Shown here: one piece after another, positions 5,745-43,838 of the stretch
Position numbering within the stretch: position 1 is the stretch's first letter
Layout: each line of letters opens with the position of its first letter
Source: Saprospiraceae bacterium
GTDB lineage: Bacteria > Bacteroidota > Bacteroidia > Chitinophagales > Saprospiraceae
Assembly (NCBI GenBank): GCA_019187225.1
Contig: JABAQQ010000018.1
Coordinates: 1-64,000, forward strand
Direction: 5' to 3'
Length of the DNA: 64,000 bases
The notes under the pieces: generated by a model
What the model was told of the DNA's origin: nothing
The model's input: the letters and a program-made list of their open reading frames with translations, nothing else
Database searches by the model: none
Position numbers and translations under genes: made by a program

Positions 5745-5851
5745 CGTCCGCTCCCGCACACCCCTCCGTCCGATACCGAACAACCCTCCGCGTCTTTTCC
5801 TTTTCTAAAAATATGAAAATCAACACATAAGCATTTCGGCACGCGGTATGG
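5745..5851 (+). promoter_or_regulatory. Regulatory module A: paired dyads plus sigma-54-like promoter
   Basis: Two 16-bp dyads, CGTCCGCTCCCGCACA (5745-5760) and CGTCCGATACCGAACA (5767-5782), are 22 bp apart start to start. A sigma-54-like element TTCGGCACGCGGTATGG follows at 5835-5851, its GG falling 56 bp after the second dyad. The first dyad is identical to one in the module at 43.8 kb. An AT-rich block with ATGAAAATCAAC lies just before the promoter, as in the sister modules. I infer enhancer sites for an NtrC-type activator with an RpoN promoter driving the permease at 5990. Confidence 0.65.
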
Positions 5852-5882
5852 GGTTACTTGACTTTGCTCAAGTTTAAAACCC
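5851..5882 (+). repeat. Small leader hairpin
   Basis: ACTTGA (5856-5861) and TCAAGT (5868-5873) pair around a 6-nt loop. GGGTT (5851-5855) and AACCC (5878-5882) can extend the stem across a bulge. It sits just after the putative sigma-54 promoter and before the large inverted repeat, so it would lie at or near the 5' end of the permease mRNA. Confidence 0.4.
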
Positions 5883-5884
5883 AC

Positions 5885-5979
5885 AACCTTCGTTGATACC
5901 CTTTATAAAAATCCCTTTTGCAATCATTCGTAACCACAGCAGTCCAAGGGGATTTTTACAAGGGGTATCAACGAAGGTT
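5885..5979. repeat. 95-bp inverted repeat in the permease leader
   Basis: A left arm at 5885-5920 and a right arm at 5945-5979 are inverted copies of about 35 nt with only a few mismatches, separated by a 24-nt loop. The outer ends are AACCTTCGTTGATACCC and its complement. The element ends 10 bp before the ATG at 5990, and the right arm contains the AAGGGG that could act as ribosome binding site. It could be a leader hairpin controlling translation or a small inserted palindromic element. I saw no second copy in the window. Confidence 0.75.
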
Positions 5980-5989
5980 TACATCACTG

Positions 5990-8392
5990 ATGATCCAAAG
6001 CTACTTCAAACCCGCCCTCCGCCATCTCCTGAAAAACGCCCGCACCACCGCGCTCAATGTCGCCGGCCTGGCGCTGGGTGTGGCCGTTTGCCTGACCGTT
6101 GCCGTGTGGCTGCAACGCGAAACTTCGTTCGACGATTTTCACCCCGACGCAGACCGGATTTTCCGGCTGACCAACACGTTCAAAAGCGAGAGCGAGTCTT
6201 TTTCGCAGGCCGGCTCGCAGTTTGCACACGGGGCATATCTGCCGCGCGAAGTGGCGCAGATCACCAATTCCTGCCGCGTTGTGGACGATCTGTTGCTGAT
6301 GAAAGCCAATGAAAAGCAGTTTTTTGAAGAATACGTGCTGACGGCGGACTCCAATTTCTTTCGCTTTTTCGGGTTCCGGCTTGTAGAAGGAGACCCGCAA
6401 ACGTGTTTGAACAGCGCGGACAAAATCGTTTTAACCGAAAAGACCGCCCGAAAATATTTCGGCTCTGAAAGTCCCATCGGCAAATCCGTGCAGGTGGACG
6501 AATACCAATTCAGTGTGGCGGGGGTGGCCGCCGACCCGCCGGAAAATTCGCACATCCAGTTTTCCGCGGTATGGCCTGTGACGCGCCTCGACCAGATCGC
6601 CCGCGCCGAATGGGGTGTCGCAAACGGGCTGGATGAAATGTGGCTGGGCGGCTGGCCAAATGTGTATCTGCGCCTGCAGGACCCCGCGCAGCGCGAAGCG
6701 GTGGAAGCCGAAGCCAATGCCGTGTGCCGCCGGCACAGCGGGGCGGAGCAGGACAGCAACAAAATGTCCTATACCTACCACCTGCAACCCCTGCGCGACA
6801 TTCACCTGAAATCGAAATTGCGCTACGACGCGCCGAACAACGGCTCGGAGTCGCTCGTGTGGGTATTTGCCGCGGTGGGATTGGCCGTTTTGTTGCTGGC
6901 TTGCATCAATTACATCAACCTCTCGACGGCAGGGGCGATGAGACGCGCCCGCGAAACGGCGGTGAAAAAAGTGGTCGGCGCGAGCCGGGGTTTCTTGACC
7001 GGACAATTTTTCAGCGAGGCGTTGCTGACTTCGGCGGCGGCAGTGGCGCTCGGTTGCGGGCTGTTCCGCCTGTTCATGCCTTCTTTTTCGCTGCTGACGG
7101 AACAGCAATACGACGTTTATCTTTCGCCGGAAAGGCTGGGCTGGCTGGCGGCATTTACGCTCGTCATCGCCGCACTGTCGGGGCTGTACCCCGCCGTTGC
7201 GCTATCGGGGTTTCAACCGGTGAGTGCCATGAAAGGCAATTTTTCCGGCAAAATGAGTGGCAATGTGCTGCGCAAAACACTGGTTGTCTTTCAGTTTTCT
7301 ATTTCCATCGCGCTGATTGCCGGTATTCTGATCATCCAACAACAGATGCATTTTATCGCCGGGAAAAACCTCGGCTACGGCAGCGAAGCAGTGGTCATGG
7401 TGCGGCATTACGGCAACCCGGAGGTGAACAGGCAATTCGGCGCGATGTACAACGAACTCAAAAAATCGCCTTATATCAAAAATGTCAGCCGCCACCAGCA
7501 GGCGCTCACGGGCGGGCTCGGCAACGGCTGGACGACGACGACCAACGGGCGGGGCGAGGAGGTTTCGACAAGCCTTTATCACCTGACGGTAGATCCTGAA
7601 TTTTTGGAAACCTACGGGATGCAGCTCGCCGCCGGGCGTTTTTTCTCCGGGCAGTTCCCGACCGACACAGCCAAAGCCTGCCTCGTGAACGAAGCCGCCG
7701 TACGCACTTTCGGCTGGGGCACACCCGAAAACGCGCTCGGCAAACAATTCGGCAAAGGAAACAACGCCAAAACGGTAGTAGGCGTGGTGCGCGATTTCCA
7801 TTTTGAAAATTTGCACAAACCCATCGAGCCGCTGCAACTTCATTTTGCCCGTTCGGGCGGCAGCATTTCCCTGAAAATGGAAGCGGCGCATTTGCCCGAC
7901 GCGATGGCACATTTGGAAAACACCTGGAAAACGATGTTTCCTGCCGTGCCGCTTAAACATCATTTTGTCAGCGACAACGTAGCCAAACAATACCTGACCG
8001 AAGCGCGGATGCAAAAAGTGCTCGGTGTGTTGTCGGGTATTTCCCTGTTGATCGCCTGCTTAGGGCTGTTCGGCCTGTCGGTTTTTATGGTCGAACGGCG
8101 GGTAAAAGAAGTGGGTGTACGGAAAGTTTTGGGCGCGTCGGTCGCGGGTATCACGGGTTTGCTGGCAAAAGATTTTTTGAAACTCGTTGCGGTGGCAATT
8201 TTGATCGCATCGCCCGTCGCTTATTATTTCATGCAAAAATGGCTCGCTGACTTTTCCTACCGCATTGATATTCAATGGTGGGTGTTCGCAGTAGCAGGAA
8301 CAGGAGCAGTAGCGGTGGCGTTTTTGACGGTGGGGTTTCAGAGTGTGAGAGCGGCGCTGGCAAATCCTGTTCAATCACTCCGAACCGAGTAA
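5990..8392 (+). CDS. MacB-core/FtsX-type ABC permease, copy 1
   Basis: This protein of 800 residues has the layout of the large Bacteroidota permeases: an N-terminal membrane helix (about 18-42), a periplasmic MacB-like core, an FtsX module of three helices around 285-420 (with ARETAVKKVVGASRG), a second core, and a C-terminal FtsX module (RVKEVGVRKVLGASVAGITG). It ends in ANPVQSLRTE, the usual C-terminus. Such proteins act with a separate LolD/MacB-like ATPase, often in lipoprotein, peptide or stress export; none is encoded nearby. The start MIQSYFKPALRHL at 5990 is chosen because it aligns with the N-termini of the sister permeases; an upstream start would begin inside the inverted repeat. 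Copy 2 follows after 42 bp. Confidence 0.88.
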   Translation: MIQSYFKPALRHLLKNARTTALNVAGLALGVAVCLTVAVWLQRETSFDDFHPDADRIFRLTNTFKSESESFSQAGSQFAHGAYLPREVAQITNSCRVVDDLLLMKANEKQFFEEYVLTADSNFFRFFGFRLVEGDPQTCLNSADKIVLTEKTARKYFGSESPIGKSVQVDEYQFSVAGVAADPPENSHIQFSAVWPVTRLDQIARAEWGVANGLDEMWLGGWPNVYLRLQDPAQREAVEAEANAVCRRHSGAEQDSNKMSYTYHLQPLRDIHLKSKLRYDAPNNGSESLVWVFAAVGLAVLLLACINYINLSTAGAMRRARETAVKKVVGASRGFLTGQFFSEALLTSAAAVALGCGLFRLFMPSFSLLTEQQYDVYLSPERLGWLAAFTLVIAALSGLYPAVALSGFQPVSAMKGNFSGKMSGNVLRKTLVVFQFSISIALIAGILIIQQQMHFIAGKNLGYGSEAVVMVRHYGNPEVNRQFGAMYNELKKSPYIKNVSRHQQALTGGLGNGWTTTTNGRGEEVSTSLYHLTVDPEFLETYGMQLAAGRFFSGQFPTDTAKACLVNEAAVRTFGWGTPENALGKQFGKGNNAKTVVGVVRDFHFENLHKPIEPLQLHFARSGGSISLKMEAAHLPDAMAHLENTWKTMFPAVPLKHHFVSDNVAKQYLTEARMQKVLGVLSGISLLIACLGLFGLSVFMVERRVKEVGVRKVLGASVAGITGLLAKDFLKLVAVAILIASPVAYYFMQKWLADFSYRIDIQWWVFAVAGTGAVAVAFLTVGFQSVRAALANPVQSLRTE

Positions 8393-8434
8393 CAATCCAA
8401 CTGAAAACGATATTGTACAGCAAACTAAACGATC

Positions 8435-10822
8435 ATGTTTCAGCACAATCTTTTGGTCATTTACAGAAGTTTCAAACGCTTCAAAAGCGCGTTCTTCATC
8501 AACCTGCTCGGATTGACGGCAGGTTTGGCTTGCGTCTTTTTGATTTACCTGTGGGTCAACGACGAATGGGGATTCGATAAATTTCATGCCCGCGATGCGC
8601 AACTTTTCCAGGTGATGGAGATCAGCAGCGAAGGCGGGAAAAAAGTCGTGCACGACGGGACACAAGGCTTGCTCGGAGAAAGCATGGCGAAAGATTTGCC
8701 CGAAGTCGAATCGGCGGTGTCTATGTTGAATCTGGCAAAAGAGGAGGTTCCGTTGCCCTTCACTTTCAATGGGAGAACGGCGCAGTACAAAGGCATTTTC
8801 GCTACGCGCAATTTCTTCGACGTTTTCAGTTTCAAACTAAAAACCGGCCAGCCTGCGCAACTTTTTTCGGACAGAAACGCCGTCGTCATTTCGGAAGGCA
8901 TGGCGCAAAGTATGTTTGGTTCAGCCGAAGCAGCCGTCGGCAAAACGCTGGAATGCGCCTTTTTTGACAAGAAAAAACAGATGCAGGTATCGGGCGTTTT
9001 CGAAAAATTGCCGCCGGACAATACGCTGGTTTTCGATTTCGTGATGTCGTACGAAATGTGTTTGCAAGACCTGTGGACGAACGGACAAAAATGGTGGAAC
9101 GAAGGCGCGAATACGTACCTGTTGCTAAAAACCGGCACCGATGTCGCTGCTTTCAATGAAAAAATCGCCGGTTTTATAAAAAAGTATCACCCCGAAACCA
9201 TCTTCACTTGTTTCGTGCGGCAGTATTCGAGCGGATATTTGCATGGCACTTACCTGGACGGCGTGCAGGACGGCGGTCGGATCGCATACGTCCACTTATT
9301 TTCGTCCATCGCGCTGTTCATCCTGCTGATCGCCTGCATCAATTTTATGAACCTCTCGACCGCGAAGGCATCCGCGCGGCTCAAAGAAATCGGCATCAAA
9401 AAAGCGGTCGGGTCTTCGCGCCGGAATCTGATTGTGCAGTTTTTGACAGAGGCGGTTCTGCTCGCCACGCTTTCCACTTCACTTGCAGCCGGAGTGGTAT
9501 CGGTCTTGTTGCCGTATTTCAATGAGTTGACGGGCAAGCAGATTGCCGTGTCATTTTCGCCCGATTTGCTCGCTGCTGCCGGCATTTTGACTTTGCTGAC
9601 CGGCTTTTTTGCGGGCAGTTATCCGGCGTTTTATTTGTCGGGCTTTCGGCCTATCGAAGTTTTGAAAGGCAAAGTGCGGCATTCGGTGGGCGAACTTTTT
9701 GCCCGGCGCGGGCTCGTGGTTTTCCAGTTTATGGTGTCGCTGGCGCTGATTTTCGCCGTCGTGGTGATTTATCAGCAAGTTGAATTTGTACAGTCGAAAA
9801 ACCTGGGCTACGATAAGGCGAACGTTCTGTATTTCAACAAGGTAGGCGCGGCTTTTCAAAATTCGGAAGCGTTTTTGGCCGAACTTCGCCAGATCCCCGG
9901 AGTCGAGCGGGCGTCAGCCATGACCAACAGCGTCGTGCAAAAAAACAGTTTGGGCGGTTCGAGCACTTATGGCATCGAGTGGCCGGGGAAGTCGGACAAA
10001 GACCTGATTGATTTCGGCATTCAGGCGGTGGATTTTGATTTGATAGAAACACTGGGGCTCCAAATGGCGGAAGGACGAAGCTTTTCGCGCGAATTTTCCG
10101 ACGAGGGTTCCAGGTTGCTTTTCAACGAAACTGCCATAAAAGTGATGGGGTTGAAAAATCCGGTGGGGCAACAGGTCGTCCTGTGGAACGAACCCAAAAT
10201 CATTGCCGGGGTGGTCAGGGATTTTCACGTCACCTCGCTGCGCGAACCCATCGTCCCGATGGTTTTTCGTTTTGAGCCGAAACACGCCAATACGGTCATG
10301 GTGAAAATCAAGACCGGCGAAGAGCGGGCGACACTCGAACGACTGGGCGATTTTTATAAAAAATTCAACCCGGGCCACGACTTCGATTTCAGGTTTCTGG
10401 ATGAGGCTTATCAGGCACAGTACGTTTCAGAACGGCGTGTGTCGCAACTTTCCAAATATTTCGCCGGGCTGGCGATTTTGATTTCCTGCCTCGGCTTGTT
10501 CGGGCTGGCGACCTTCACCGCGCAGCAACGCACCAAAGAAATCGGCATCAGAAAAGTACTGGGCGCATCGGTGGCGGGCATCACGGGTTTATTGACAAAA
10601 GATTTTTTGAAATTGGTGATCATCGCCATTCTCATCGCCTCTCCGCTGGCTTATTTTTTCATGGATAAATGGCTGACAAATTTCGCCTATCACATTGATA
10701 TTCAGTGGTGGATGTTTGTAGCAGCGGCTTTAATTGCCCTGATAATTGCATTTTTGACGGTCGGTTTCGAGAGTGTGCGGGCGGCTTTGGCGAATCCTGT
10801 TAAAAGCCTGCGCTCAGAATGA
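8435..10822 (+). CDS. MacB-core/FtsX-type ABC permease, copy 2
   Basis: This 795-residue permease is paired with copy 1 and starts 42 bp after it without a visible promoter between, so the two are probably one transcript. An N-terminal helix (about 20-42) is followed by a periplasmic core, a central FtsX module (SARLKEIGIKKAVGSSRRN), a second core and a C-terminal module (RTKEIGIRKVLGASVAGITG). The last 100 residues closely resemble copy 1, ending ANPVKSLRSE, which points to tandem duplication. A heterodimeric permease pair is plausible. The transported substrate cannot be read from the sequence. Confidence 0.88.
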   Translation: MFQHNLLVIYRSFKRFKSAFFINLLGLTAGLACVFLIYLWVNDEWGFDKFHARDAQLFQVMEISSEGGKKVVHDGTQGLLGESMAKDLPEVESAVSMLNLAKEEVPLPFTFNGRTAQYKGIFATRNFFDVFSFKLKTGQPAQLFSDRNAVVISEGMAQSMFGSAEAAVGKTLECAFFDKKKQMQVSGVFEKLPPDNTLVFDFVMSYEMCLQDLWTNGQKWWNEGANTYLLLKTGTDVAAFNEKIAGFIKKYHPETIFTCFVRQYSSGYLHGTYLDGVQDGGRIAYVHLFSSIALFILLIACINFMNLSTAKASARLKEIGIKKAVGSSRRNLIVQFLTEAVLLATLSTSLAAGVVSVLLPYFNELTGKQIAVSFSPDLLAAAGILTLLTGFFAGSYPAFYLSGFRPIEVLKGKVRHSVGELFARRGLVVFQFMVSLALIFAVVVIYQQVEFVQSKNLGYDKANVLYFNKVGAAFQNSEAFLAELRQIPGVERASAMTNSVVQKNSLGGSSTYGIEWPGKSDKDLIDFGIQAVDFDLIETLGLQMAEGRSFSREFSDEGSRLLFNETAIKVMGLKNPVGQQVVLWNEPKIIAGVVRDFHVTSLREPIVPMVFRFEPKHANTVMVKIKTGEERATLERLGDFYKKFNPGHDFDFRFLDEAYQAQYVSERRVSQLSKYFAGLAILISCLGLFGLATFTAQQRTKEIGIRKVLGASVAGITGLLTKDFLKLVIIAILIASPLAYFFMDKWLTNFAYHIDIQWWMFVAAALIALIIAFLTVGFESVRAALANPVKSLRSE

Positions 10823-11085: not shown

Positions 11086-11197
11086 TGCAGACGGCGATAA
11101 CGAAAATCTATCAATACCCGGCGCAAGTCTTGCAATTCCGCCCTCCATTTCCTCTTTTCTAAAAGTCTGACAATCAGCCATCCGGCATTTCGAAGGG
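11086..11197 (+). promoter_or_regulatory. Regulatory module B (degenerate copy)
   Basis: The conserved block before the promoter is well preserved (TTTTCTAAAAGTCTGACAAT, 11155-11174), as is a promoter-like TCCGGCATTTCGAAGGG (11181-11197). Only one weak dyad (around 11093-11107, CGGCGATAACGAAAA) is recognisable at the expected distance. It resembles modules A and C but looks decayed. It may still serve the glycosyltransferase-like gene at 11289, or be a leftover of a lost permease copy. Confidence 0.4.
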
Positions 11198-12839: not shown

Positions 12840-12945
12840 CGTCCGCTCCCGCACGAGCGCCGTCCGAAAGCGAACATTTTTTCGCCATTTTATTGCACTT
12901 AAAAGTTTGACAATCAGCAACTAAACAATTCGGCATGGGGTATGG
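12840..12945 (+). promoter_or_regulatory. Regulatory module C: paired dyads plus sigma-54-like promoter
   Basis: The dyads are CGTCCGCTCCCGCACG (12840-12855) and CGTCCGAAAGCGAACA (12861-12876). The promoter-like element TTCGGCATGGGGTATGG lies at 12929-12945, again with its GG 56 bp after the second dyad. The block AAAAGTTTGACAATCAGCAA (12901-12920) is shared with modules A and B. It lies 38 bp before the chosen start of permease copy 3, leaving a short leader. Confidence 0.65.
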
Positions 12946-12982
12946 GGAGTTGAATTGCCGATTGACCATCGGCGATAAGGCT

Positions 12983-15349
12983 ATGATCGCAAACTATATT
13001 CTCCTCGCATACCGCAACCTGTTGTCCAACAAGGTGGCCTCGTTCATCAATATTTTCGGGCTGTCCATTGCGGTGGCCTGCGGCATTACCGTCTTTTTAT
13101 TTCTGAAAAACTACTGGACGCTCGACAATTTCCACGTCAACGGAGACCGTATTTTCATGGTGGAACATGTCGCGGAGGTCGAAGGAGAAACACAAACAGC
13201 GGGAGATGCGCCTGCGCCCATCGCTCCGGCCCTGGCAGCGGATTTTCCCCAGGTGGAACAGACTGTTCGCATCGAAAAAGAGGGCGTTCGGGTGTTCAAC
13301 AAGGAAAATATCTTCAACGAAATACTCACCTATGCGGATACGGGGTTTTTCAGGATGTTCACTTTCCCGCTGAAATACGGAAATCCAGCGGCACTTGCCG
13401 ACCCAAATGCGCTCATTTTGAGCAGTGAAGCGGCGGAAAAGTATTTTCCGGGGCAGGTGCCGGTCGGTCAGCCGTTTTCAGTGGTTACGGACGATCAGCA
13501 GCACAAACAATTCACGGTTCAGGGCGTGGCAAAGCCGTTCCCGAACAACGCTGGTTTCGCATTCGATTTGCTGACCGGATACCACCCGGTGCATGAAGCA
13601 CTCCGAAATCAGGATTGGACGACACATATTTCGGGTGTTTTCGTTTCGGTCCGGAAGGTGGAAGATATCGCTTATCTCTCCGGGCAGATGAGCCGGTACG
13701 TGGCGCTGTACAATTCAAACAACCCGGATCGCCCGGTCAAAAGTTTTGTTTTCGACAATCTCCGGAATCCCGCGCCGGGCGCCTACAACGTGAACCGTCG
13801 GCCTGCAGAGGCTCATCACCCCTTGCTGACGGTGGTTTTTTCCGCCATCGCTCTATTAATGATGGGCTTGTCCTGTTTCAATTACGTCAATATATCGCTG
13901 GGCTCCGTCTCGCGCCGTTTGAAAGAGATCGGCGTCCGGAAAGTAATGGGCGGCAGCCGGACGCAACTCATTGCCCAATTCATGGCCGAAAACCTGCTGC
14001 TTTGTTTCGCGGCTTTGCTGCTGGGCCTGCTGATGACGGCAGCTTTTCTGGCGCCGCATTTCAACGAGATCATGGTCATGGACATATCGCTCTCTTTCGC
14101 TGAAAATACGGCCTTATGGTGGTTCCTGGCGGGTTTACTGGTGTTCACGGGCCTGGCTTCGGGCGCCTATCCTGCGTTGTATATTTCAGCGTTTAAGCCG
14201 ACCGTGATCTTTACCGGAAAACAAAAATTCGGAGATAAGAACACCTTGCGCCGCGGGCTTTTAACGGTGCAGTTCGTCCTGGCATTTATGGCAGTGATGA
14301 TCGGTGTGGTGTTGATGACGGCCGGCAGGCAATGGGAAAAAATTTACTGGGGCTACAACCCCGACCGGACGTTGGTGGTACAGCTCACCGACGGCAAGCA
14401 ATATGAACTGCTGAAAAATGAAATGTTGAAAAACCCGGCCGTTCAAACAATTGCCGGATCGCAACACCACATCGGGCAGTCGCTGGCAAAAGAAACCGTT
14501 TATATCGGTGGTGAGGAACAGGATGTATTCCGCTACGACGTCGGTGCCGGTTACTTCGAATCGTTGGATCTGGGGCTTGCCGAAGGTCGTTTTTTTGATG
14601 GGAGCCGCCGTGCCGAAGATGCGCGCTCGGTGGTGGTCAACGAATCCTTCGCCCGGCAACGTCAGTGGGACGAGGCAGTGGGAAAGACTCTTCGCGTCGG
14701 ACAACAAACTTATGCGATCGCAGGAGTGGTCAAGGACTTTAAACTTTTCGGGTCGGGCGTGGCTCGGCCTGCCGTGTTTTTTTTAGCCGATGATGCGCAA
14801 TACGGCTACCTGGTGGCCAGATTTGAACAGGGCAGCGGGCCCAAAGTGGCCGCTGAAGTGGAACGCATCTGGCCCGGACTTTTTGCGGGTGTGCCGGTCA
14901 ATCACTTTTTTCAGAAAGATATTTTTGAAGGGTTCAACCGGACATTCCGCAACCTGACGACTACTTTCGGCTACATCGCCGGCCTGGCTTTACTGATCGC
15001 CTGTATGGGCTTGTACGGTTTGGCGGCGCAGCATTTTTCAAGACGCCTGAAAGAGGTGAGCATGCGGAAAGTGTTGGGCGCCTCGGTTGCACAGATCATC
15101 CTGCTGGTCAACCGCGAGTTCCTCGTGCTGTTGCTGATCGCCGGATTGGTCGCTACGGGTATCAGTTATCTGGGAGTTCGACTTTTGCTCGACGCCGCGC
15201 AGGAATTCACCGGCACCTACCATCCCGGAATTGCTCCCTTTATCGCCGCCAACCTGATTGTCCTTATTACAGCTGCCGTCGCAGTGGGCAGACAAACCTG
15301 GAAGATCGCGCACGTTCAATTGTCAACGGTGCTGAAAAACAGCGATTGA
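12983..15349 (+). CDS. MacB-core/FtsX-type ABC permease, copy 3
   Basis: The protein (788 residues) starts MIANYILLAYRNLLSNKVAS and has the same layout as the other copies: N-terminal helix, periplasmic core, central FtsX module (SRRLKEIGVRKVMGGSRTQ), second core, C-terminal module (RRLKEVSMRKVLGASVAQII). The start at 12983 is preferred to an in-frame ATG at 12935, because the latter lies inside the promoter element of module C and adds a sequence not shared by the family. The C-terminus (STVLKNSD) differs from the ANPVxSLR ending of copies 1, 2, 6 and 7, so this copy is more diverged. Copy 4 follows after 36 bp. Confidence 0.87.
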   Translation: MIANYILLAYRNLLSNKVASFINIFGLSIAVACGITVFLFLKNYWTLDNFHVNGDRIFMVEHVAEVEGETQTAGDAPAPIAPALAADFPQVEQTVRIEKEGVRVFNKENIFNEILTYADTGFFRMFTFPLKYGNPAALADPNALILSSEAAEKYFPGQVPVGQPFSVVTDDQQHKQFTVQGVAKPFPNNAGFAFDLLTGYHPVHEALRNQDWTTHISGVFVSVRKVEDIAYLSGQMSRYVALYNSNNPDRPVKSFVFDNLRNPAPGAYNVNRRPAEAHHPLLTVVFSAIALLMMGLSCFNYVNISLGSVSRRLKEIGVRKVMGGSRTQLIAQFMAENLLLCFAALLLGLLMTAAFLAPHFNEIMVMDISLSFAENTALWWFLAGLLVFTGLASGAYPALYISAFKPTVIFTGKQKFGDKNTLRRGLLTVQFVLAFMAVMIGVVLMTAGRQWEKIYWGYNPDRTLVVQLTDGKQYELLKNEMLKNPAVQTIAGSQHHIGQSLAKETVYIGGEEQDVFRYDVGAGYFESLDLGLAEGRFFDGSRRAEDARSVVVNESFARQRQWDEAVGKTLRVGQQTYAIAGVVKDFKLFGSGVARPAVFFLADDAQYGYLVARFEQGSGPKVAAEVERIWPGLFAGVPVNHFFQKDIFEGFNRTFRNLTTTFGYIAGLALLIACMGLYGLAAQHFSRRLKEVSMRKVLGASVAQIILLVNREFLVLLLIAGLVATGISYLGVRLLLDAAQEFTGTYHPGIAPFIAANLIVLITAAVAVGRQTWKIAHVQLSTVLKNSD

Positions 15350-15385: not shown

Positions 15386-17758
15386 ATGTTACAAAATTAT
15401 CTTCGCATCGCATTTCGCAACCTGCGCCGCAACCGCCTCTATGCGCTCATCAACATCGTGGGTATGGGCATCGGTATCGCGGCAGTCGTGTGGGCTTACC
15501 AGACCTACCGATTCAGTTTTTCTTTCGATGATTTCCACCCAGACCGCGCACACATCTTCCGGGCGCTGGTATACCGGGACGGCATGGAGGGAGCAAAAGG
15601 GCTTTGCCCCTCACCGGTGGCAATGGCGGCCAAAGAGGATTTTGCCAGCATTGCTGAAGTGGTGCGCTGGGATAGTCGGGGCGCCGACATCAAAGGCGAC
15701 CAAAGCGAGCCGTTCAGCCAGCAGGTGCATTTTACCGATCCGGCTTTTTTCAGGCTTTTCAATTTCCCGCTCGTGGCGGGCAGCAACGATTTGAGCGACA
15801 AAAGTACCGTGCTGCTGACGGAGGAAATGGCAACCAAATTTTTTGGAAAAGAAAACCCGCTGGGCAAAATCCTGGTATTCTACTCGGGCGAAAAAATCTC
15901 CCTGCCGCTCACGGTGAAAGGCATTTTAAAAGACCCGCCACTCAACTCCTCCATTCGGTTCAATTTTATCACACACTTTGACAATCAGAAAGTTAACGAC
16001 ACATCGTTTGTGCGATCCGATGACTGGAAATGGTTTCTGGACGCGGTGTTTTTCAAAATTCCCAACCCCGCGGACGCTCCGCGTTTGGCCAAAGATTTTG
16101 AAAAATACCTCCCGCTCCAAAACGCCGCGCGGAATGATTGGAAAGTGACCGGTTTTGCTTTGAAATCGCTGCCGGAGACAGCCGCGACAGAAGGCATTGA
16201 ATACAATGCTTTGTATAATCGTCCGGACAACTCGGCAGCATACGGCCCTTTCGTACTGGCGGTGCTCATCCTTTTTTCCGCCTGTCTCAACTTTGCCAAC
16301 ACCACCGTCGCCCGCTCCAACCGACGGCTGCGGGAAATGGGGGTGCGCAAGGTAATGGGCGGCACGCGCGGCCAACTGATGCGGCAAATGCTGCTGGAAT
16401 GTGCCGCCATTGTAGTGGCCGCCATTGGCGTGTCCGTGTTGTTCAACCATTGGTGGTTGCCGGTTTTCAACAGTATGTTCTCCGGGATCACGGTGGGCAC
16501 CGATTATTTCCACGACACGACATTGATTGTTTTTCTGGTCGTCATTTTTATCAGCACCACACTTCTGGCTGGCGCTTACCCGGCTTTTTATGTAAGTCGC
16601 TTCAACCCGTCGCGGATATTCAGCGGCACGGTAAAGTTCGGCGGCACCAACCTGTTTTCGCGTTTATTACTTGGCCTTCAGGTGGTGGTGTCGCTTATCA
16701 CGGTCATATCGGGCGTGGCATTTTCCCGGAATGCAACCTTTCAACAGCATTACGACTATGGCTATGACCGCAAAAACATGATGGGAGTATCGGTCAGCGA
16801 CCGCAACACTTACGAGGCTTACCGAAACGCCGTGCAACATTTACCCGGAATAGAGGAAGTCGCCGGTACCTTGCATCACATCGGGTTTGGCTATCGGGGC
16901 ATGACGGCGGAGGCCGAAGGCGAAAAACGGGAGACCAACTACATGGAAGTGGGCGACAACTACCTGAACACCATGAACTTGCGCATAGCGGCAGGTCGCG
17001 CCTTCGACCCGCGCATGGAATCGGACTACGAGAATGCCCTGCTCGTTTCCCAAAAATTCGCGGGACAATTCGGCTGGAAAGGAGAGGAGGCACTCGGCAA
17101 ACAAGTGCGTATAGACACCATCGCATTCACAGTTGTCGGGCTGCTTCAGGATTTCCATTCCGACAACCTGTTTGAACCGATGGAGCCGGTGGCGATGCGT
17201 CTGGTGCGCCCTGACCAATATGTTCGCCTCATCATCCGGACGAAACCCGGAGCATTGACTTCCATACACGACCAGGCTAAAGCGGAATGGGCCAGGTTGT
17301 TTCCGCTCAAACCTTTCCGTGGTTTTTACCAGGACGAAGTGGCCGCCGAGGCATTTCAGGTGACGAGCAGCATCGCCACCATCTTTTCGTGGTTTGCCAT
17401 TGTCGCTATGTTGCTGACAGCCACAGGATTGTTCGCTTTAGTGTCGCTGACGGTGTTGAAAAAAATGCGAGAAATCGCCGTGCGCAAAGTGATGGGCGCC
17501 CGGCCCCGGCAGATCATGGCTTTGGTGAACAAAGGCTACCTCTGGATTTTCCTCGTCGCCGCCGTTATCGGCTGTTATGCGGGCTGGTTTCTGACCAAAT
17601 TGCTGATGGATTTGATTTTCAAAATCAATGTCGGTGTGGAAGTCAGCACGATGATTTTTGCTGTGGTCGTATTGTTCCTTATTTCCGCACTGACGGTGGG
17701 TTTCAAAGTGTGGCAGGCCGTGCGGACGAATCCGGCGGAGGTGTTGAAGGCGGAATGA
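15386..17758 (+). CDS. MacB-core/FtsX-type ABC permease, copy 4
   Basis: This 790-residue permease starts MLQNYLRIAFRNLRRNRLYA, 36 bp after copy 3, and is probably co-transcribed with it. The central FtsX module carries NRRLREMGVRKVMGGTRGQL and the C-terminal one LKKMREIAVRKVMGARPRQI. It ends in NPAEVLKAE. The pairing of two unlike permeases behind one promoter repeats the arrangement of copies 1/2 and 7/6. The substrate is unknown, and the partner ATPase must be encoded elsewhere. Confidence 0.87.
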   Translation: MLQNYLRIAFRNLRRNRLYALINIVGMGIGIAAVVWAYQTYRFSFSFDDFHPDRAHIFRALVYRDGMEGAKGLCPSPVAMAAKEDFASIAEVVRWDSRGADIKGDQSEPFSQQVHFTDPAFFRLFNFPLVAGSNDLSDKSTVLLTEEMATKFFGKENPLGKILVFYSGEKISLPLTVKGILKDPPLNSSIRFNFITHFDNQKVNDTSFVRSDDWKWFLDAVFFKIPNPADAPRLAKDFEKYLPLQNAARNDWKVTGFALKSLPETAATEGIEYNALYNRPDNSAAYGPFVLAVLILFSACLNFANTTVARSNRRLREMGVRKVMGGTRGQLMRQMLLECAAIVVAAIGVSVLFNHWWLPVFNSMFSGITVGTDYFHDTTLIVFLVVIFISTTLLAGAYPAFYVSRFNPSRIFSGTVKFGGTNLFSRLLLGLQVVVSLITVISGVAFSRNATFQQHYDYGYDRKNMMGVSVSDRNTYEAYRNAVQHLPGIEEVAGTLHHIGFGYRGMTAEAEGEKRETNYMEVGDNYLNTMNLRIAAGRAFDPRMESDYENALLVSQKFAGQFGWKGEEALGKQVRIDTIAFTVVGLLQDFHSDNLFEPMEPVAMRLVRPDQYVRLIIRTKPGALTSIHDQAKAEWARLFPLKPFRGFYQDEVAAEAFQVTSSIATIFSWFAIVAMLLTATGLFALVSLTVLKKMREIAVRKVMGARPRQIMALVNKGYLWIFLVAAVIGCYAGWFLTKLLMDLIFKINVGVEVSTMIFAVVVLFLISALTVGFKVWQAVRTNPAEVLKAE

Positions 17759-17897: not shown

Positions 17898-17935
17898 ACA
17901 CCGCTCCCGTACACCACGCCGTCCGAAACCGGCCG
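17898..17935 (+). promoter_or_regulatory. Regulatory module D: orphan dyad pair
   Basis: ACACCGCTCCCGTACA (17898-17913) and CGTCCGAAACCGGCCG (17920-17935) match the dyads of modules A and C with the same 22-bp spacing. At the expected promoter distance only a weak TCGG..GGG remains (about 17987-18000), overlapping the 3' end of the convergent S41 gene. No plus-strand gene follows, so this appears to be a relic left when the downstream gene was lost or replaced. Nothing else is seen in the 236-bp gap 17759-17994. Confidence 0.5.
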
Positions 17936-17994
17936 ATCCATTCCGCCTTTTCCTTTCCAATATCAATGGCAAGGCAGATGACACAGTCGGAGCA

Positions 17995-33392: not shown

Positions 33393-33833
33393 TTAGCGGT
33401 TTATACTATGGAGCGGCCCTTGCCACAACACTTGCTCTATCATCCACTGGCCGTCTTTTTTCGCAAGTAATATATAATCCAATCCCCACCAGGCGACGAC
33501 TTTTGCACAGGCCACCTGCTCCTGCACGTCGAGCACTTCCACTGTTTTGGGGTCATCCGGCTTGGCGAACCTCTTTTTAACAAGTACTTTTTTCGCGTAA
33601 TCGAGCGCTTGCCCGTAGCTCATCGCGTCGCCCGCATACCGTCCGGTTTTGTCTTTGTAATAGCCGTACTTGTGCAGCGCGGGGCTGAGGCACCTGATGA
33701 GTTTGACCGTGTCGCCTTCGTAAAAACCTTCGATATAGTTCAGACAAGATTGTTCGATGGCAGCCTGCTCCGGCGATTGGGCATTTGTTCCGAATGCCAG
33801 GGTGGATAAAAGGAAGAACAAGAGTGTTTTCAT
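33393..33833 (-). CDS. Secreted NTF2-like / putative lumazine-binding family protein
   Basis: A signal peptide (MKTLLFFLLSTLAFGTNAQ) precedes about 127 residues. AIEQSCLNYIEGFYEGDTVK, the central LIRCLSPALHKYGYY and the C-terminal QWMIEQVLWQ fit the small SnoaL/NTF2-like fold annotated in Bacteroidota as 'putative lumazine-binding' (PF12893-like). Most members have no proven function. It is first in the operon (permease 5 starts 10 bp after its stop) and lies about 80 nt downstream of the putative start site of module G. Confidence 0.72.
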   Translation of the reverse strand: MKTLLFFLLSTLAFGTNAQSPEQAAIEQSCLNYIEGFYEGDTVKLIRCLSPALHKYGYYKDKTGRYAGDAMSYGQALDYAKKVLVKKRFAKPDDPKTVEVLDVQEQVACAKVVAWWGLDYILLAKKDGQWMIEQVLWQGPLHSINR

Positions 33834-33925: not shown

Positions 33926-34031
33926 GCCCAAACCACGAGCCACATTTGCAACATCTTGTTTGTCAATTTTTTAGAATATTATTTTTGCGAAATAATGTCC
34001 GAACCTGAACAAGGGTGTTCGCATTCGGACA
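33926..34031 (-). promoter_or_regulatory. Regulatory module G: paired dyads plus sigma-54-like promoter
   Basis: Read on the minus strand, the dyads are TGTCCGAATGCGAACA (34016-34031) and TGTTCAGGTTCGGACA (33996-34011), 20 bp apart. A promoter-like TGTGGCTCGTGGTTTGGGC follows at 33926-33944, its GG 55 bp from the nearer dyad. TGGCTCG-N4-TTGG is close to the sigma-54 consensus TGGCACG-N4-TTGC. It would drive the operon starting at 33833. Confidence 0.65.
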
Positions 34032-38756: not shown

Positions 38757-41126
38757 TCATTCGTTGCGCAATGACTTGACGGGATTCGCCACCGCCGCTT
38801 TGATCGCCTGCGAACTGACCGTCAGAAACGCCACGACCACGGCGATTATCCCGGCGAGCGCAAATACCTGCCAGCCGATAGCAATGCGGTAGGCAAAATC
38901 GGAAAGCCAGCGGTTCATTGCCCACCAGGCGACAGGAGCGGCAAGCAGCAGTGCGAGCGACACCAGTTTCAGGAAGTCGCGCGTCAGCATCCCGGCAATG
39001 CTGCCGACCGATGCGCCGAGCACCTTGCGTATACCGATCTCTTTGGTGCGCCGTTCGGCGGTAAATGCCGCCAGTCCGAGCAACCCGAGCACACAAAGCA
39101 ACACCGCCACCAATGCGAACGCATCGAGCAGGTTGCCGAGACGCGCTTCTTCCCGGTGGAGTTTGTCGAAAGTCTCATCAAGGAATTGGTATTCGAAAGG
39201 GAAACGGGGATTGAATTTTTTCCATTGTGATTCCACAGCGGCCACGCAGGCTTGCGCATCACGGGCAGTGGTTTTTACAAACAGCGTATAAGGCACCATG
39301 CCATTCTGCGGTGGGCTGATCACCACCGGCGGAATTTTTTCCCGTACTGATCCGACGTGAAAATCGCGCACTACTCCGATGATGGTGCCTTCTCTTTGCC
39401 ACAATTTGAACCGCTTGCCGATGGGATCGGTCAGGCCAGTGGTTTTGACCGCCGTTTCGTTCAGCATAAAATGTACCGAATCCGCCGGCGTGCCGCTGAA
39501 CCATTCACCCTGAGCCATTTCGAGGTGCATCATTTCCCGGAAACCGGGGCTCACCATCAGCACCTCTGTGACGAACTGCTTGTCCGGCGCCTTTCCCTCC
39601 CAGTCCGTATCGCCGGTGGAAGACAAACCCTGCAGCAGACTTCCCGTTGCCGCCTCCACACTCCGGACTCCGGGCTGGCCGAGCAATTCGGCTCTTACGG
39701 CGTCATAGTGTTTTTCCATTTCACCCATGTTGCAAACGAGCACATTTTCCTTATCGTAGCCCAGCCGCATTTCGCTGATGTACCGAAGTTGTTGCCGAAC
39801 CACCAGGGCGCTGGCAATCAATCCTATGGAGATAACGAACTGAAATACGACCAGGGCCCGCCGCAAACCCGGCAAGCCTCCTCCTGTGGAAGTGTGCGTC
39901 CGGGCGACCTGCATCACAGGCATTGCCGATAAAGAAAGCGCTGGATACAACCCTGCAACTGCCCACATGAGGCCCGCCGCACCCAGCAATACACCGGCAT
40001 GATCCCAGCCAGGTTCGATGGATTTGCCCGTCAGTTGGTTGTACAAAGGCAACAGGAACCACAGCAAAGGCAATGTGAGCAGCAGTGCCGCGCCAACTGT
40101 CAGGGCTGATTCTGCAAAAAACTGCCGGAACAAGTGCAGCCGCCCTGCTCCGAGCACTTTGCGCAAACCCACTTCCGGGGCTTTTTGCGCCGCCCGGGCA
40201 GTGCTCCAGTTCACATAGTTGATGGCGGCTACAATAATGATGGTCATGGCTATCCAGAATAACATATTCACGGTGCGGCTCCGGGTATCTTTGCCGTCGG
40301 CTCCGGTGAAATGGAGCGTGGGCAATGGCTGGAGGGAATAGGTCATTTTGCCGCCGCTCGCCTGTAAAAAGCTGTTGTTGCGGTAATGCAGATCGGTGAG
40401 TTGACGGGCGATGGCACTCCGGTCGGCATCGGGGTGCAGGCGCAAAAAAGTCTGGCAGTTGTGATCGCCCCAGTTGGTCTCCAGCGATTTCCAGTAGTCG
40501 TTCGGCCTGAAATTCGCCGACATGCGTTTGGTCGGCAACAAGAGGTCGGCCCGGAGCGTGGAGTTTTCGGGAAAATTGCGCACCACGCCTGTTACCGTAC
40601 GCTGAACGTCACCGATCTTAAGGGTTTTGCCAACTGGGTTGGCAGTACTGAAATATTTTTGGGCCAGCCGCTCCGTCAGCACCACACTTTGGGCATCGGG
40701 AAAGGGATTGGAGGCATCGCCCTGCGTGAGCGGGAAATTGAAAAAAGTGAAAAATTCCGGATCGGTAAAGGCGAGGCTCTTTTCAACGAATACCTGTCCA
40801 TCCGTTTCGACGAGAAAATTGCTGTTCCTCGGGCTGAATCGAAGCGACTGCTCGACGCCGGGCGCAGTTTCCTGAGCATAGATTGCCAGCGGGAAAGGTG
40901 TCGTGGACCAGTTCATCGTGGCGCCTTCCTGGTCGAAGTGGCAATTGACCCGCGCAATGCGTTCTGCATCGGTATGAAAGCGATCGAAACTGCGTTCGTC
41001 CTGTACCCACAGCAAAATGAACACACCGGTACACAGTCCCGCAACAAGTCCGGTAACATTGAGCACAGTATAAAACTTGTTGCGTATCAGGGCGCGCAGC
41101 GCCAGCAGGAAATTGGATTTCAGCAT
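38757..41126 (-). CDS. MacB-core/FtsX-type ABC permease, copy 6
   Basis: The start at 41126 (MLKSNFLLALRALIRNKFYT) aligns with the family; an upstream in-frame ATG at 41234 would add a sequence without family resemblance that covers a good -33/-7 promoter. The 789-residue protein has the N-terminal helix, the central module with AQKAPEVGLRKVLGAGRLHL, the C-terminal module with RTKEIGIRKVLGASVGSIAG, and ends ANPVKSLRNE, close to copy 7. It is second after copy 7, but the 129-bp gap contains its own promoter-like element and a REP-like palindrome, so it may be expressed independently. Confidence 0.86.
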   Translation of the reverse strand: MLKSNFLLALRALIRNKFYTVLNVTGLVAGLCTGVFILLWVQDERSFDRFHTDAERIARVNCHFDQEGATMNWSTTPFPLAIYAQETAPGVEQSLRFSPRNSNFLVETDGQVFVEKSLAFTDPEFFTFFNFPLTQGDASNPFPDAQSVVLTERLAQKYFSTANPVGKTLKIGDVQRTVTGVVRNFPENSTLRADLLLPTKRMSANFRPNDYWKSLETNWGDHNCQTFLRLHPDADRSAIARQLTDLHYRNNSFLQASGGKMTYSLQPLPTLHFTGADGKDTRSRTVNMLFWIAMTIIIVAAINYVNWSTARAAQKAPEVGLRKVLGAGRLHLFRQFFAESALTVGAALLLTLPLLWFLLPLYNQLTGKSIEPGWDHAGVLLGAAGLMWAVAGLYPALSLSAMPVMQVARTHTSTGGGLPGLRRALVVFQFVISIGLIASALVVRQQLRYISEMRLGYDKENVLVCNMGEMEKHYDAVRAELLGQPGVRSVEAATGSLLQGLSSTGDTDWEGKAPDKQFVTEVLMVSPGFREMMHLEMAQGEWFSGTPADSVHFMLNETAVKTTGLTDPIGKRFKLWQREGTIIGVVRDFHVGSVREKIPPVVISPPQNGMVPYTLFVKTTARDAQACVAAVESQWKKFNPRFPFEYQFLDETFDKLHREEARLGNLLDAFALVAVLLCVLGLLGLAAFTAERRTKEIGIRKVLGASVGSIAGMLTRDFLKLVSLALLLAAPVAWWAMNRWLSDFAYRIAIGWQVFALAGIIAVVVAFLTVSSQAIKAAVANPVKSLRNE

Positions 41127-41136
41127 ATTTATTGTG

Positions 41137-41166
41137 CAAATATATTGTTGAAAGCAATCGGACAAA
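41137..41166 (-). promoter_or_regulatory. TTTG/TATATTTG promoter before permease copy 6
   Basis: On the minus strand, TTTG (41163-41166) and TATATTTG (41137-41144) are separated by 18 nt, matching the Bacteroidota primary sigma consensus. The start codon at 41126 follows 10 nt after the -7 box, so the leader would be very short. Confidence 0.5.
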
Positions 41167-41194
41167 GGATGTTGGATATTGGACACTGGACATT
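41167..41194. repeat. Tandem repeat, period 7, four units
   Basis: GGATGTT, GGATATT, GGACACT, GGACATT follow each other without gap. The array lies just upstream of the promoter-like element of permease copy 6. It resembles the other short-period intergenic arrays of this window (43667, 54489, 60260) in style but not in sequence. Confidence 0.5.
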
Positions 41195-41232
41195 TGACTA
41201 AATGATGGATTGGCAGAGTCCGATAGCCCCAC

Positions 41233-41251
41233 ATCCCGCTAAAGACGGGAT
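41233..41251. repeat. REP-like palindrome, copy 2
   Basis: ATCCCGCTAAAGACGGGAT is the inverted counterpart of the palindrome at 10835-10853, with two base differences. It abuts the 3' end of permease copy 7 (stop at 41256). Confidence 0.45.
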
Positions 41252-41255
41252 TTCG

Positions 41256-43658
41256 TCACTCCGAACGGAGCGACTTAACAGGATTTGCCAATGCCGCTTT
41301 CACACTTTGAAAACCCACCGTCAGGAACGCCAGCGCCATTGCCACCGCCCCGGCAGCCGCGAACACCCACCATTCGATCTCGATGCGATAGGCGAAGTCT
41401 TGCAGCCATTTGTTCATAGCCCAGAATACGACAGGCGATGCGATGACAATTGCGAGGACAATGAGTTTTAAAAAATCTTTGGCCAAAAGACCGGTGATGC
41501 TCCCTACCGATGCGCCGAGCACCTTCCGGATACCAATTTCTTTCGCACGGTGTTGCGCTGCAAACGTCGCCAGGCCGAGCAATCCGAGACAGGAAATCAG
41601 TACCGCTAATCCGGCAAACAGATTAAAAAGCAATCCGGTCCGGGTTTCCGCTTTGTATTGCTGGTCGTATTGTTCATCCAGAAACTTGTATTTGAACACT
41701 TTTCCGGGGTTGAATTTTTCAAAAACCGCTTGCGCGGACGCGATCGCTTCCTGCGTTTGGCCTGCAGCGGTTTTAATGTAAAAAGCGTCCATCCATTCGG
41801 GATTTTGGTACAGGATGAGCGGTTCGATGGCGTCGTGCAGCGAACGGAAATTGAAATCCCTGACCACACCGGCAATCGTTCCTTTTGTCCCGTTGAAGTC
41901 CACCCATTTGCCGGTGGCGCCATTCTGAAAACCCATTTCGCGGACGGCGGCTTCGTTGAGGATAAAGGATGTGGTATCCCAGCCGTTGAGTTCAGGTCTG
42001 AACCAGCGCCCTTCGGCCAACTGCAACCCGAAAAAAACCTGAAAATCTCCGTCCACACCGAGTTGCCAGATCGGCATTTCTTTCCCGGGTGGCTTGCCTT
42101 CCCAATCCATGCCGCCATTTTGAGAGCCGATGCCGACAATGTTGTTGTCGCTCATGGATACGGAGGCGATACCGGGTTTGCCTTGCAGTTCATCTTTTAC
42201 GACTGCGGCAGGCGCTTTTTTGCCATACATGCTCATAAAAATCACATTCTCGCGCTCGAATCCCAGCTTCGCTTCGCGCACGTAAGCCATTTGCCGGGAA
42301 ATGATGAATGCGCTGGTGATCAGGATCAAAGAAAATACAAATTGACCGGTCACTAAGGTTTTGCGCAGCGCTGCTCCGGTACTGCCGCTTGATTTTCCAA
42401 ACGAAAAAAATTGCCCTTTTAAAACGGCAACCGGGTTGAAGCGCGTCAGTAAAAGTGCCGGATAGATACCAGCCAGCAATAAAGCGAGTACGGCGGTGCC
42501 GGCTACCACGCGCAGCACAACCGGCTGCAGGAATTGCGCACTGCTGAAATGCTTCCCCGACAATTCGTTGAACGTCGGCAGCAAAGCCGCCGCGAGCAAC
42601 ATCGCCATGCCGGTCGCTACGAGAATGAGCAACGCGGATTCTGCCATAAACTGCACGAACAATTCGCCTCGCCCGGCGCCGATGGCCTTGCGCACGCCGA
42701 CCTCTTTGGCGCGGGTAGTAGCCCGGGCGGTGGCGAGGTTGACGTAGTTGATACAAGCGATGGCCAGCACCAGCAATCCTATCAGCCCAAACACCGCGAT
42801 CGTCCTGCGATCGCCCGTTTGGTCGGCCGAAGCCCACGAAAGCATTCCGGAGTCGAGGTATACCTGGTGCAGCGGTTGCAGAGCGTACCAGAATTCCCCG
42901 TCGTCGGGTTGATTGCGATGGCGGGCGACGAGCGCGGCGAGTTTGTGGGCCAGGGCCTCGCGGTCGGCTTCGGGTCGCAACAGGAACCAGGTGGTATAAC
43001 TCATCATGCCCCAGTGAAATGCCTGTTTCGGGTCGCGCACGAGCTGATTGGCAACGGGTTCCCAAGGCATCAGACAAGAGAATTGAATGCTCGAATTGGA
43101 AGGTGGGTCTTTGAGTATGCCCGTCACAACGAGATCAATTTTGTTGTCGAAACGCAGGGTTTTACCCAGTGGGTCGGCATCGGCAAAAAATTTGCGGGCC
43201 AGCGTTTCGGTGAGTAAAATCCCGTTGGGTGTGCTGAGCGGCGCGCTCCCGTCGCTGCGCAGGAGGGGAAAGTCGAACAAATCGAAAAAACCTTTGTCCA
43301 CGATCAATACCTTTTCCGCTTCCACCAAAGCGGCGCCTATCTGAAATGTGCGCACATGGAAATTCCACTCCCGCACCGCTTCTTGTATTTCGGGCAATTC
43401 GGCTTTGGCGGCTGGCGCCAGGTTGGCCGGGGTGGTTTCGGTCCATTCGCGTTTGCCGCCGAAGTCCCAGTTGGTCAAAACGCGCACAATATTCTTGCCT
43501 TGCCGGTGAGAGCGGTCGAAGGTCAGTTCGTCCTGCACCCAAAGCAGCACGAGCAGCGCCGCTGCCAACCCGGTAGCCAGTCCGGCGAGATTGAGGAGGG
43601 CATAAATGCGGTCGCGGCGCAGGGCGCGGAAAGCGAAGGAAAGTTGACGGCGCAGCAT
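41256..43658 (-). CDS. MacB-core/FtsX-type ABC permease, copy 7
   Basis: The 800 residues start MLRRQLSFAFRALRRDRIYA. Helix at about 18-40, central FtsX module (TTRAKEVGVRKAIGAGRGEL), C-terminal module (RAKEIGIRKVLGASVGSITG), end ANPVKSLRSE. Its 3' part closely resembles copies 1, 2 and 6 (for example AYRIEIEWWVFAAAG here and SYRIDIQWWVFAVAG in copy 1). It is the first gene after module J, whose promoter lies about 75 bp upstream of the start, and copy 6 follows on the same strand. Confidence 0.88.
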   Translation of the reverse strand: MLRRQLSFAFRALRRDRIYALLNLAGLATGLAAALLVLLWVQDELTFDRSHRQGKNIVRVLTNWDFGGKREWTETTPANLAPAAKAELPEIQEAVREWNFHVRTFQIGAALVEAEKVLIVDKGFFDLFDFPLLRSDGSAPLSTPNGILLTETLARKFFADADPLGKTLRFDNKIDLVVTGILKDPPSNSSIQFSCLMPWEPVANQLVRDPKQAFHWGMMSYTTWFLLRPEADREALAHKLAALVARHRNQPDDGEFWYALQPLHQVYLDSGMLSWASADQTGDRRTIAVFGLIGLLVLAIACINYVNLATARATTRAKEVGVRKAIGAGRGELFVQFMAESALLILVATGMAMLLAAALLPTFNELSGKHFSSAQFLQPVVLRVVAGTAVLALLLAGIYPALLLTRFNPVAVLKGQFFSFGKSSGSTGAALRKTLVTGQFVFSLILITSAFIISRQMAYVREAKLGFERENVIFMSMYGKKAPAAVVKDELQGKPGIASVSMSDNNIVGIGSQNGGMDWEGKPPGKEMPIWQLGVDGDFQVFFGLQLAEGRWFRPELNGWDTTSFILNEAAVREMGFQNGATGKWVDFNGTKGTIAGVVRDFNFRSLHDAIEPLILYQNPEWMDAFYIKTAAGQTQEAIASAQAVFEKFNPGKVFKYKFLDEQYDQQYKAETRTGLLFNLFAGLAVLISCLGLLGLATFAAQHRAKEIGIRKVLGASVGSITGLLAKDFLKLIVLAIVIASPVVFWAMNKWLQDFAYRIEIEWWVFAAAGAVAMALAFLTVGFQSVKAALANPVKSLRSE

Positions 43659-43666
43659 GGGAAAGA

Positions 43667-43706
43667 GGTTTGACGTTGTTTGATGTGGTTTGAAATAGTC
43701 TGAGAG
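43667..43706. repeat. Imperfect tandem repeat, period 10
   Basis: GGTTTGACGT, TGTTTGATGT, GGTTTGAAAT and AGTCTGAGAG form four degenerate 10-bp units just upstream of the permease copy 7 start. They lie in the leader between module J and the ATG. Confidence 0.4.
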
Positions 43707-43733
43707 ATTAAATATTGTTACCGGCTTTTTATC

Positions 43734-43838
43734 GCCATACCTGTGCCGAATTTCCTATCTTTTGATAATCAATCTTTTATAATCAGAAAAACAGAATACG
43801 GTGTTCGTTTTCGGACAGGGGTTGTGCGGGAGCGGACG
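43734..43838 (-). promoter_or_regulatory. Regulatory module J: paired dyads plus sigma-54 promoter (best copy)
   Basis: On the minus strand the dyads are CGTCCGCTCCCGCACA (43823-43838, identical to the first dyad of module A) and TGTCCGAAAACGAACA (43802-43817). The promoter TTCGGCACAGGTATGGC (43734-43750) has GG-N10-GC spacing and matches the sigma-54 consensus better than any other copy. The distance from dyad to GG is 55 bp. It serves permease copy 7. The 319-bp gap 43659-43977 also holds a period-10 repeat and a hairpin near kdsD. Confidence 0.7.

Follow-up and report, generated by a model that had tools for sequence, protein, structure and literature searches.

We uncovered a module of about 110 bp that recurs before genes for FtsX-type permeases in a stretch of 64,000 nucleotides from a Saprospiraceae bacterium (contig JABAQQ010000018.1 of assembly GCA_019187225.1, positions 1 to 64,000 of the forward strand; hereinafter the window). 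It is composed of two dyads, a spacer with a site of the IHF type and a box resembling sigma-54 promoters. We consider it highly probable that the module is an enhancer-dependent promoter, at which a response-regulator-type activator of the kind encoded on contig C23 of the same genome, IHF-like bending and sigma-54 RNA polymerase would jointly govern a shared exporter regulon. The parts of the module, their spacing, their confinement genome-wide, the linkage to the activator and the conservation in relatives are read directly from the sequence.

The initial annotation had recognized four copies in the window, A, C, G and J, and all were found in their respective places, the dyads by dyad matching and a trained composite score, the spacer sites by an alignment of 14 modules and a consensus test, and the boxes by composite score and box comparison. 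On the forward strand, module A has dyads at 5745..5760 (a candidate activator site) and 5767..5782, a predicted IHF-type bend site at 5802..5830 (an A-tract with a WATCAANNNNTTR-like core) and the -24/-12 sigma-54-like box CGGCACGCGGTATGGGG at 5837..5853. It is followed by two open reading frames (ORFs) for FtsX permeases akin to the ADOP duplicated permeases (hereinafter ADOP-like), one at 5990..8392, with an ATG inferred at 5990, MacB_PCD and FtsX domains and a match to the model TIGR03434 under its cut-off, and the other at 8435..10822, identified by domain match. Module C, on the same strand, has dyads at 12840..12855 and 12861..12876, a predicted IHF-type site at 12897..12924 and the -24/-12 box CGGCATGGGGTATGGGG at 12931..12947; behind it lie ADOP-like FtsX permease ORFs at 12983..15349 (ATG inferred; family-model match) and 15386..17758 (domain match). 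On the reverse strand, module G has its first dyad at 34016..34031, its second at 33996..34011, the predicted IHF-type site at 33948..33975 and the box TGGCTCGTGGTTTGGGC at 33926..33942, and its unit comprises, as first gene, one for a small Lumazine_bd_2 protein (33393..33833; domain match) and an ADOP-like FtsX permease ORF (30974..33382; family-model match). Module J, also on the reverse strand, has dyads at 43823..43838 and 43802..43817, a predicted IHF-type site at 43754..43781 and the box CGGCACAGGTATGGCGA at 43732..43748, and precedes two ADOP-like FtsX permease ORFs with domain matches (41256..43658 and 38757..41234). The start-to-start offsets of the dyads are 22 (A), 21 (C), 20 (G) and 21 bp (J), which agrees with the 20-22 bp originally noticed, as does the first G of the GG, claimed to lie 55-56 bp past the second dyad and found at the 55th or 56th base. 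A and J share their first dyad letter for letter over all 16 bp, as had been pointed out, and the modules at C15:89 kb and C13:10.9 kb likewise have first dyads identical over 16 bp. From the proposed 16-bp dyad consensus, the first dyad of C and the second of G each deviate by one letter. The three decayed copies that had been mentioned are also present, namely dyads lacking a promoter box at 17901..17962 (forward strand; 20.5 bits, model positions 6-66), a dyad pair lacking a promoter box at the right distance at 26480..26525 (forward strand; 17.5 bits) and a very weak module-like stretch by the J permease junction at 41111..41186 (reverse strand; 13.4 bits); to these is added a half module at 11145..11192 (forward strand; 20.7 bits, model positions 48-95), which retains the IHF-type site and the start of the -24 box but no dyads.

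In the window the lone dyad, with at most two mismatches, occurs 61 times, where 100 shuffles gave 35.4 (standard deviation 6.8), and since this enrichment is only modest we relied on the composite for significance. In the latter, the two dyads are set 19-23 bp from each other and the -24/-12 box follows after another 52-58 bp; it was trained on the four window copies only, and was applied to 240 kb outside the window, in stretches picked for FtsX, activator or rpoN genes. Ten correctly oriented copies outside the window score 31.5-53.4, against a maximum of 22.8 in twelve 304-kb Markov simulations, and the composite of dyads and box is not a chance pattern. Because the stretches had been chosen by gene content, genome-wide confinement was tested separately with a sequence-only model of 14 modules across 7,183,558 bases, 150 of 2923 first-look candidates being scored. 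This retrieved 15 full-length modules at 52-83 bits, 14 of them training members and one, C4:103263-103370, newly found; the next match, at 22.4 bits, is the reverse side of a module. Fourteen of the 15 precede ADOP-like FtsX permease units (one interrupted) and one precedes an hlyD-ATPase operon, such that the whole-genome scan, which had been suggested as a check, places every full-length match before an FtsX or exporter unit with a clean gap in score. Among the 14 permease modules, one has the small Lumazine_bd_2 gene between itself and the permease and two stand about 0.6 kb before the permease frame. The permease gene directly behind the new C4 module is broken by a stop, and both the module and a leader hairpin (see below) have been kept there (G000:C4:102385-103370; L015, L298). 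Seen from the side of the permeases, the genome has 23 intact ADOP-like genes (frames of 789-934 aa) in addition to the interrupted one; 13 are directly behind a module and seven come after a gene of that kind in the same orientation, the operon membership of these seven being judged from strand and gaps. None of the five MacB_PCD frames of 410-448 aa has a module in the genome-wide model search.

The box very probably both works like a sigma-54 promoter and is one. In the 14 aligned copies of this genome the two dyads stand at a fixed offset upstream of it, the dyads having been used to select the copies. It was placed by a pattern requiring GG, so that the GG itself is not independent evidence, and could be placed in 100 of 103 loci of relatives, where it takes the form T-GG-C-A-Y-R-N4-T-T-G; these boxes (TTGGCAYR-N4-TTG) are nearer to the sigma-54 consensus than those of the genome itself, which are CGGCAYR-rich and end in TRTGGG-like letters. 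Letters of the TTG core that were not fixed by the selection recur in both sets, T in 12 of 15 own boxes and 70/100 in relatives, and G in 14 of 15 and 77/100; the latter counts are those of the G at -13, 10 nt after the GG at -25/-24.

The spacer between enhancer and box contains a further element. The initial annotation had stated that the sequence between the parts differs while the spacing is kept; the spacing is indeed kept, but a third conserved element had been overlooked, for the 14 aligned modules share TAAAA-nn-TTGAnAATCA upstream of the -24 box. The consensus for IHF is WATCAANNNNTTR, and at least eight of its nine positions are matched in 12 of the 14 own spacers (best match on either strand; mean 2.0 and maximum 6 in 200 letter shuffles) and in 42 of 52 spacers of relatives (shuffle mean 9.2, maximum 17; six of 58 without a clear box were dropped). 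The forward matches mostly begin 18-19 bp upstream of the -24 box, and for the most part they coincide with the reverse matches on one symmetric site. A single PF00216 (HU/IHF-family) gene was found in the genome, which could encode HU or IHF, and we hypothesize that a homodimeric protein of the HU family would fit the symmetry of the site. The core TTGATnATCAA also forms a good palindrome by itself, and if the sole PF00216 gene found is for HU rather than IHF, the element might instead be bound by a second specific regulator; this is a genuine possibility, albeit not one we favor, as the location between enhancer and -24 box, the match to WATCAANNNNTTR and the A-tract fit bending. The conservation of the element in relatives also speaks against a second regulator.

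As to the proteins that would act on the module, the initial annotation had proposed an NtrC-type activator with RpoN and named both as things to look for. The rpoN gene is present in one copy and there are five strong sigma-54 activator domains in the genome, one of which, on C23 (G000:C23:28441-29817), has a PF00072 receiver, a PF00158 AAA+ and a PF02954 Fis helix-turn-helix domain in that order. Divergently from its gene run hlyD, two genes for ATPases, one for an OmpA-like protein and one for an ADOP-like permease; one module stands before hlyD and another before the permease, and it is this activator whose divergent promoter region contains the dyads. The loci of the other four activators, taken as controls, gave no module; one score of 19.9 near C1 is within the null range, and near the C7 activator a broader model matched in part, but not over the dyads (15.3 bits). 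Hence, rpoN, the C23 activator and the confinement of the module to exporter units support the original proposal, and the C23 protein likely controls the modules. A kinase encoded next to the activator in examined loci of Chitinophaga, Runella, Emticicia and Ferruginibacter, and in genome G182 (HATPase), has one strong match in this genome, C19:71415-72740. This candidate cognate kinase is 50% identical (428 bits versus 72 for the next match) and is encoded about 2 kb from a module.

The linkage is also seen elsewhere in the Bacteroidota. Among 80 named hlyD loci of this phylum retained from scanning with an alignment of HlyD, the activator (51-88% identical) is divergent upstream of hlyD in 70, with little upstream DNA in two of the other ten; a forward module match stands just before hlyD in 66 (window-genome model, E≤0.01), 64 of the matches covering most of the model and two only the dyads, and 58 loci have both. 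In the 198 genomes of the order, 30 have the module (E≤1e-5) and 44 the activator (E≤1e-100), the latter being found in 27 of the 30 with the module, as compared with 17 of the other 168 (Fisher p 1.4e-18), and 31 genomes combine a full-length ADOP-like gene (36 genomes in all) with the close activator (33 in all; p 1.2e-28), all these tallies and p-values ignoring shared ancestry. Only about four ADOP candidates were scored per genome, which makes copy number unusable, and the presence of a strong match was used instead; module matches per genome are lower bounds, with 19 candidates scored in the order search and 13 in the class search. In the three module genomes lacking a close activator, a 40% identical one lies at the far end of the operon that the module itself precedes, and two activator-positive, module-negative genomes yielded modules under the broader model. 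Of the 65 order matches outside the genome itself, 58 were examined: 32 have an ADOP-like gene and nine an HlyD gene within 700 bp, ten have an ATPase and one an ADOP gene further on, and six have no exporter gene. At the level of the class the module was found in 33 of 295 genomes, and of the 28 module genomes outside the order, 25 were inspected at their best locus, with an exporter gene downstream in 23.

Two side observations pertain to the activators. A second group, approximately 40-47% identical, is encoded at the far end of operons of the HlyD/ATPase/MacB type, which begin with the same module (genomes G079, G057, G101, G068, G179, G170, G173, G147, G016 and others), with an outer-membrane efflux gene in the one operon checked for it. 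In five Runella loci (L231, L234, L240, L242, L249; ~5663-5877) the dyads between activator and hlyD bear a nearly full second module towards the activator, and the Emticicia locus L222 has a less complete second promoter half in that direction. A promoter half towards the activator gene suggests autoregulation from a bidirectional enhancer.

Several observations, besides the disregard of shared ancestry, weigh against the proposed sigma-54 regulon. Three of the 23 intact ADOP-like genes (C15:84154, C21:114578 and C12:181163) have no module, and no forward match was seen in 14 of the 80 named hlyD loci, mostly of Chitinophaga. The canonical -12 C is present in only 3 of 15 own boxes and 26/100 in relatives, the register being uncertain by 1 bp in some, for example J. 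The activator loop reads GAFTDA instead of GAFTGA, as it does in 63 of 69 orthologues (plus one GSFTDA, with five unmatched by the pattern); the Dickeya protein VfmH, also GAFTDA, is reported to have given no RpoN pull-down (PMC10714721). On the other side, the equivalent G266D change in NorR is described as active and signal-independent (PMC2941729), and GAFTDA is listed among the variants expected to keep activity (PMC4641369). Finally, in two deeply sampled relatives (10/10 and 10/11 matches) only 13 of 20 modules have an exporter gene within 700 bp; of the remaining seven, two stand before genes for outer-membrane proteins of the TonB type, and the others before genes for an ECF sigma factor, a DUF4097 protein and small unassigned proteins, one of these with a GDSL lipase gene behind it. 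Such non-exporter targets in distant relatives are seen at L345:627-1205, L330:711-1763, L335:3169-5610 and L347:3545-5974 (ECF sigma factor, DUF4097, TonB-type). Together with the BlaI-BlaR1-like and CotH-like genes at module loci of other relatives, these targets would point to envelope stress.

The missing -12 C and the GAFTDA loop, along with the short distance of about 80-120 bp from the dyads down to the presumed start, would also be compatible with an ordinary dimeric regulator that uses the dyads as operators and acts on a Bacteroidota promoter of the housekeeping type, of which the GGCA..TG box would be part. We deem this unlikely in view of the GG-N10-G geometry of the box in own and relatives' copies, the linkage to and co-occurrence with a full sigma-54 activator, the IHF-type site between operators and promoter, and the aforementioned Runella loci, in which a nearly full second module runs towards the activator from the same dyads.

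Returning to the sigma-54 enhancer module as favored here, its similarity between loci is unrelated to that of the permeases (rho 0.09, p 0.44; 78 pairs from 13 permease-module units). Modules A and C13:10.9 kb, for instance, have identical dyads, a 77% identical spacer and an 89% identical box, whereas their 100-bp flanks are 33% and 27% identical (all-pair means 25% and 27%) and their permeases 36%; some other pairs, such as A and C13b, share leader sequence. The likeness of the A and C13:10.9 kb modules could be explained by selection, by short gene conversion or by copying. The near-identity of these two modules, the shared leader of A and C13b and the existence of decayed copies are what one might expect if the modules were mere unselected leftovers of a recent duplication of permeases with their upstream regions. 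Such an origin is extremely improbable, given that module likeness does not track protein likeness, that the flanks of this pair are near chance identity while the dyads are identical, and that the same architecture occurs across orders with other spacer letters. We tentatively raise a different scenario, in which the ~110-bp module is a discrete cassette that spreads among permease loci by copying or gene conversion, irrespective of the coding genes, with a leader hairpin adding lineage-specific post-transcriptional control to nine permease genes. Were this so, diverged permease paralogs would have come under the control of a single activator, which drives the adaptor-ATPase operon as well.

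The leader hairpin in question, of more than 30 base pairs, lies before permease A at 5881..5982 on the forward strand, as delineated by folding and a model search; it is near-perfect, ends about 8 nt before the ATG and folds at -50 kcal/mol (z -8.6). A model built from eight leaders, one of which (C21b) folds weakly (z -2.1), has double-sided changes that keep the pairing at 18 of 30 pairs. It finds ten places in the genome, leaving out three reverse-strand matches of the same places. Beyond that of permease A, these are C13:19202-19303, C32:2677-2774, C19:77569-77668, C19:84785-84882, C19:87379-87476, C4:103127-103231, C21:71070-71173, C21:115310-115410 and C14:109349-109449. Nine of the ten are directly before ADOP-like genes, some of which are the second and third in their clusters, one the interrupted C4 gene and one a gene that lacks a module; the tenth, on C14 (C14:109349-109449), is between convergent genes. 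The hairpin was not found at E≤1e-4 in 297 other genomes of the family, five of the same genus included, and Rfam returned only microRNA models far below gathering scores, which amount to generic hairpins. In permease leaders of relatives, arms of at least 16 were found in 15 of 210 cases, against 0 of 210 in-gene windows, with unlike sequence; these are perhaps ordinary intergenic repeats. A very strong inverted repeat near the second C13 permease (L047:8150-8290; -86 kcal/mol) was set aside as a different, GC-rich repeat unrelated to this family. As copying between the arms could also keep them matched, the leader hairpin is only a candidate RNA-level element.

Sigma-54 promoters of the NtrC/NifA type have paired enhancers and an IHF site. 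The module resembles them in its paired upstream dyads, the predicted bend site between these and a -24/-12 box, the AAA+ response regulator and rpoN, and departs from them in its operator, its close and fixed spacing, the degenerate -12, the GAFTDA loop and its targets, a dispersed ADOP-like permease family in Bacteroidota. Regarding the exporters, the ATPases (the first with 273 bits) and the adaptor (219 bits) find their best NCBIfam matches among the DarBCD darobactin exporter models NF038007, NF038008 and NF038010, and the C23 permease has one of these models in second place (135.5 bits); all these scores fall below the curated cut-offs of 375, 450 and 700. The same permease aligns over its full length with TIGR03434 at 359 bits, the best score in this genome, but below the curated cut-off of 622.3, for which reason these proteins are called ADOP-like only; no match over 622.3 was seen in the 198 genomes of the order, with about four candidates scored per genome.

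The link between sigma-54 and FtsX is already in print as a prediction. An in silico survey of sigma-54 regulons reported COG0577 FtsX-like permeases as enriched targets in Bacteroidia and called this first evidence (PMC12316311, 2025); the accessible text of the survey names no activator, operator pair, bend site or linked adaptor-ATPase operon, and "ihf" occurs zero times in its main text. An earlier work tied sigma-54 to the cell exterior generally, in a text that, as far as accessible, lacks the words "bacteroid", "ftsx" and "macb" (PMC3162934). In a literature made up largely of papers outside subscription, we found no published description of the activator, the operator pair, the bend site or the regulon.

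Taken as a mechanism, the phosphorylated NtrC-type C23 activator would bind the two adjacent operators TGTYCG-N4-CGRACA, 20-22 bp apart, and an IHF-like HU-family protein would bend the 53-55-bp spacer at the symmetric site YAAnnnnTTGATnATCAAnnnnTTR, the core of which begins about 17-19 bp before the -24 box. The bend would bring the activator into contact with sigma-54 RNA polymerase at the -24/-12 box and permit it to open the promoter. The regulon would then consist of the divergent hlyD-ATPase operon and about 20 dispersed permeases, and one kinase-activator pathway would co-induce the shared adaptor and ATPase with many alternative permeases, in an exporter response probably to envelope stress or antimicrobials. 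Binding, bending, dependence on RpoN, the signal and the sharing of subunits are what we infer here from the arrangement of sites and genes.

These results offer a concrete candidate activator, operator and target list for a large family of Bacteroidota export permeases about which little is understood, and make testable both the cargo of these permeases and the idea that many of them share one adaptor and ATPase. The conserved combination of enhancer, bend site and promoter provides a model for sigma-54 activation in Bacteroidota, including its natural GAFTDA activators and degenerate -12 boxes. In this organism a single signaling pathway probably turns on a whole set of dispersed exporters.

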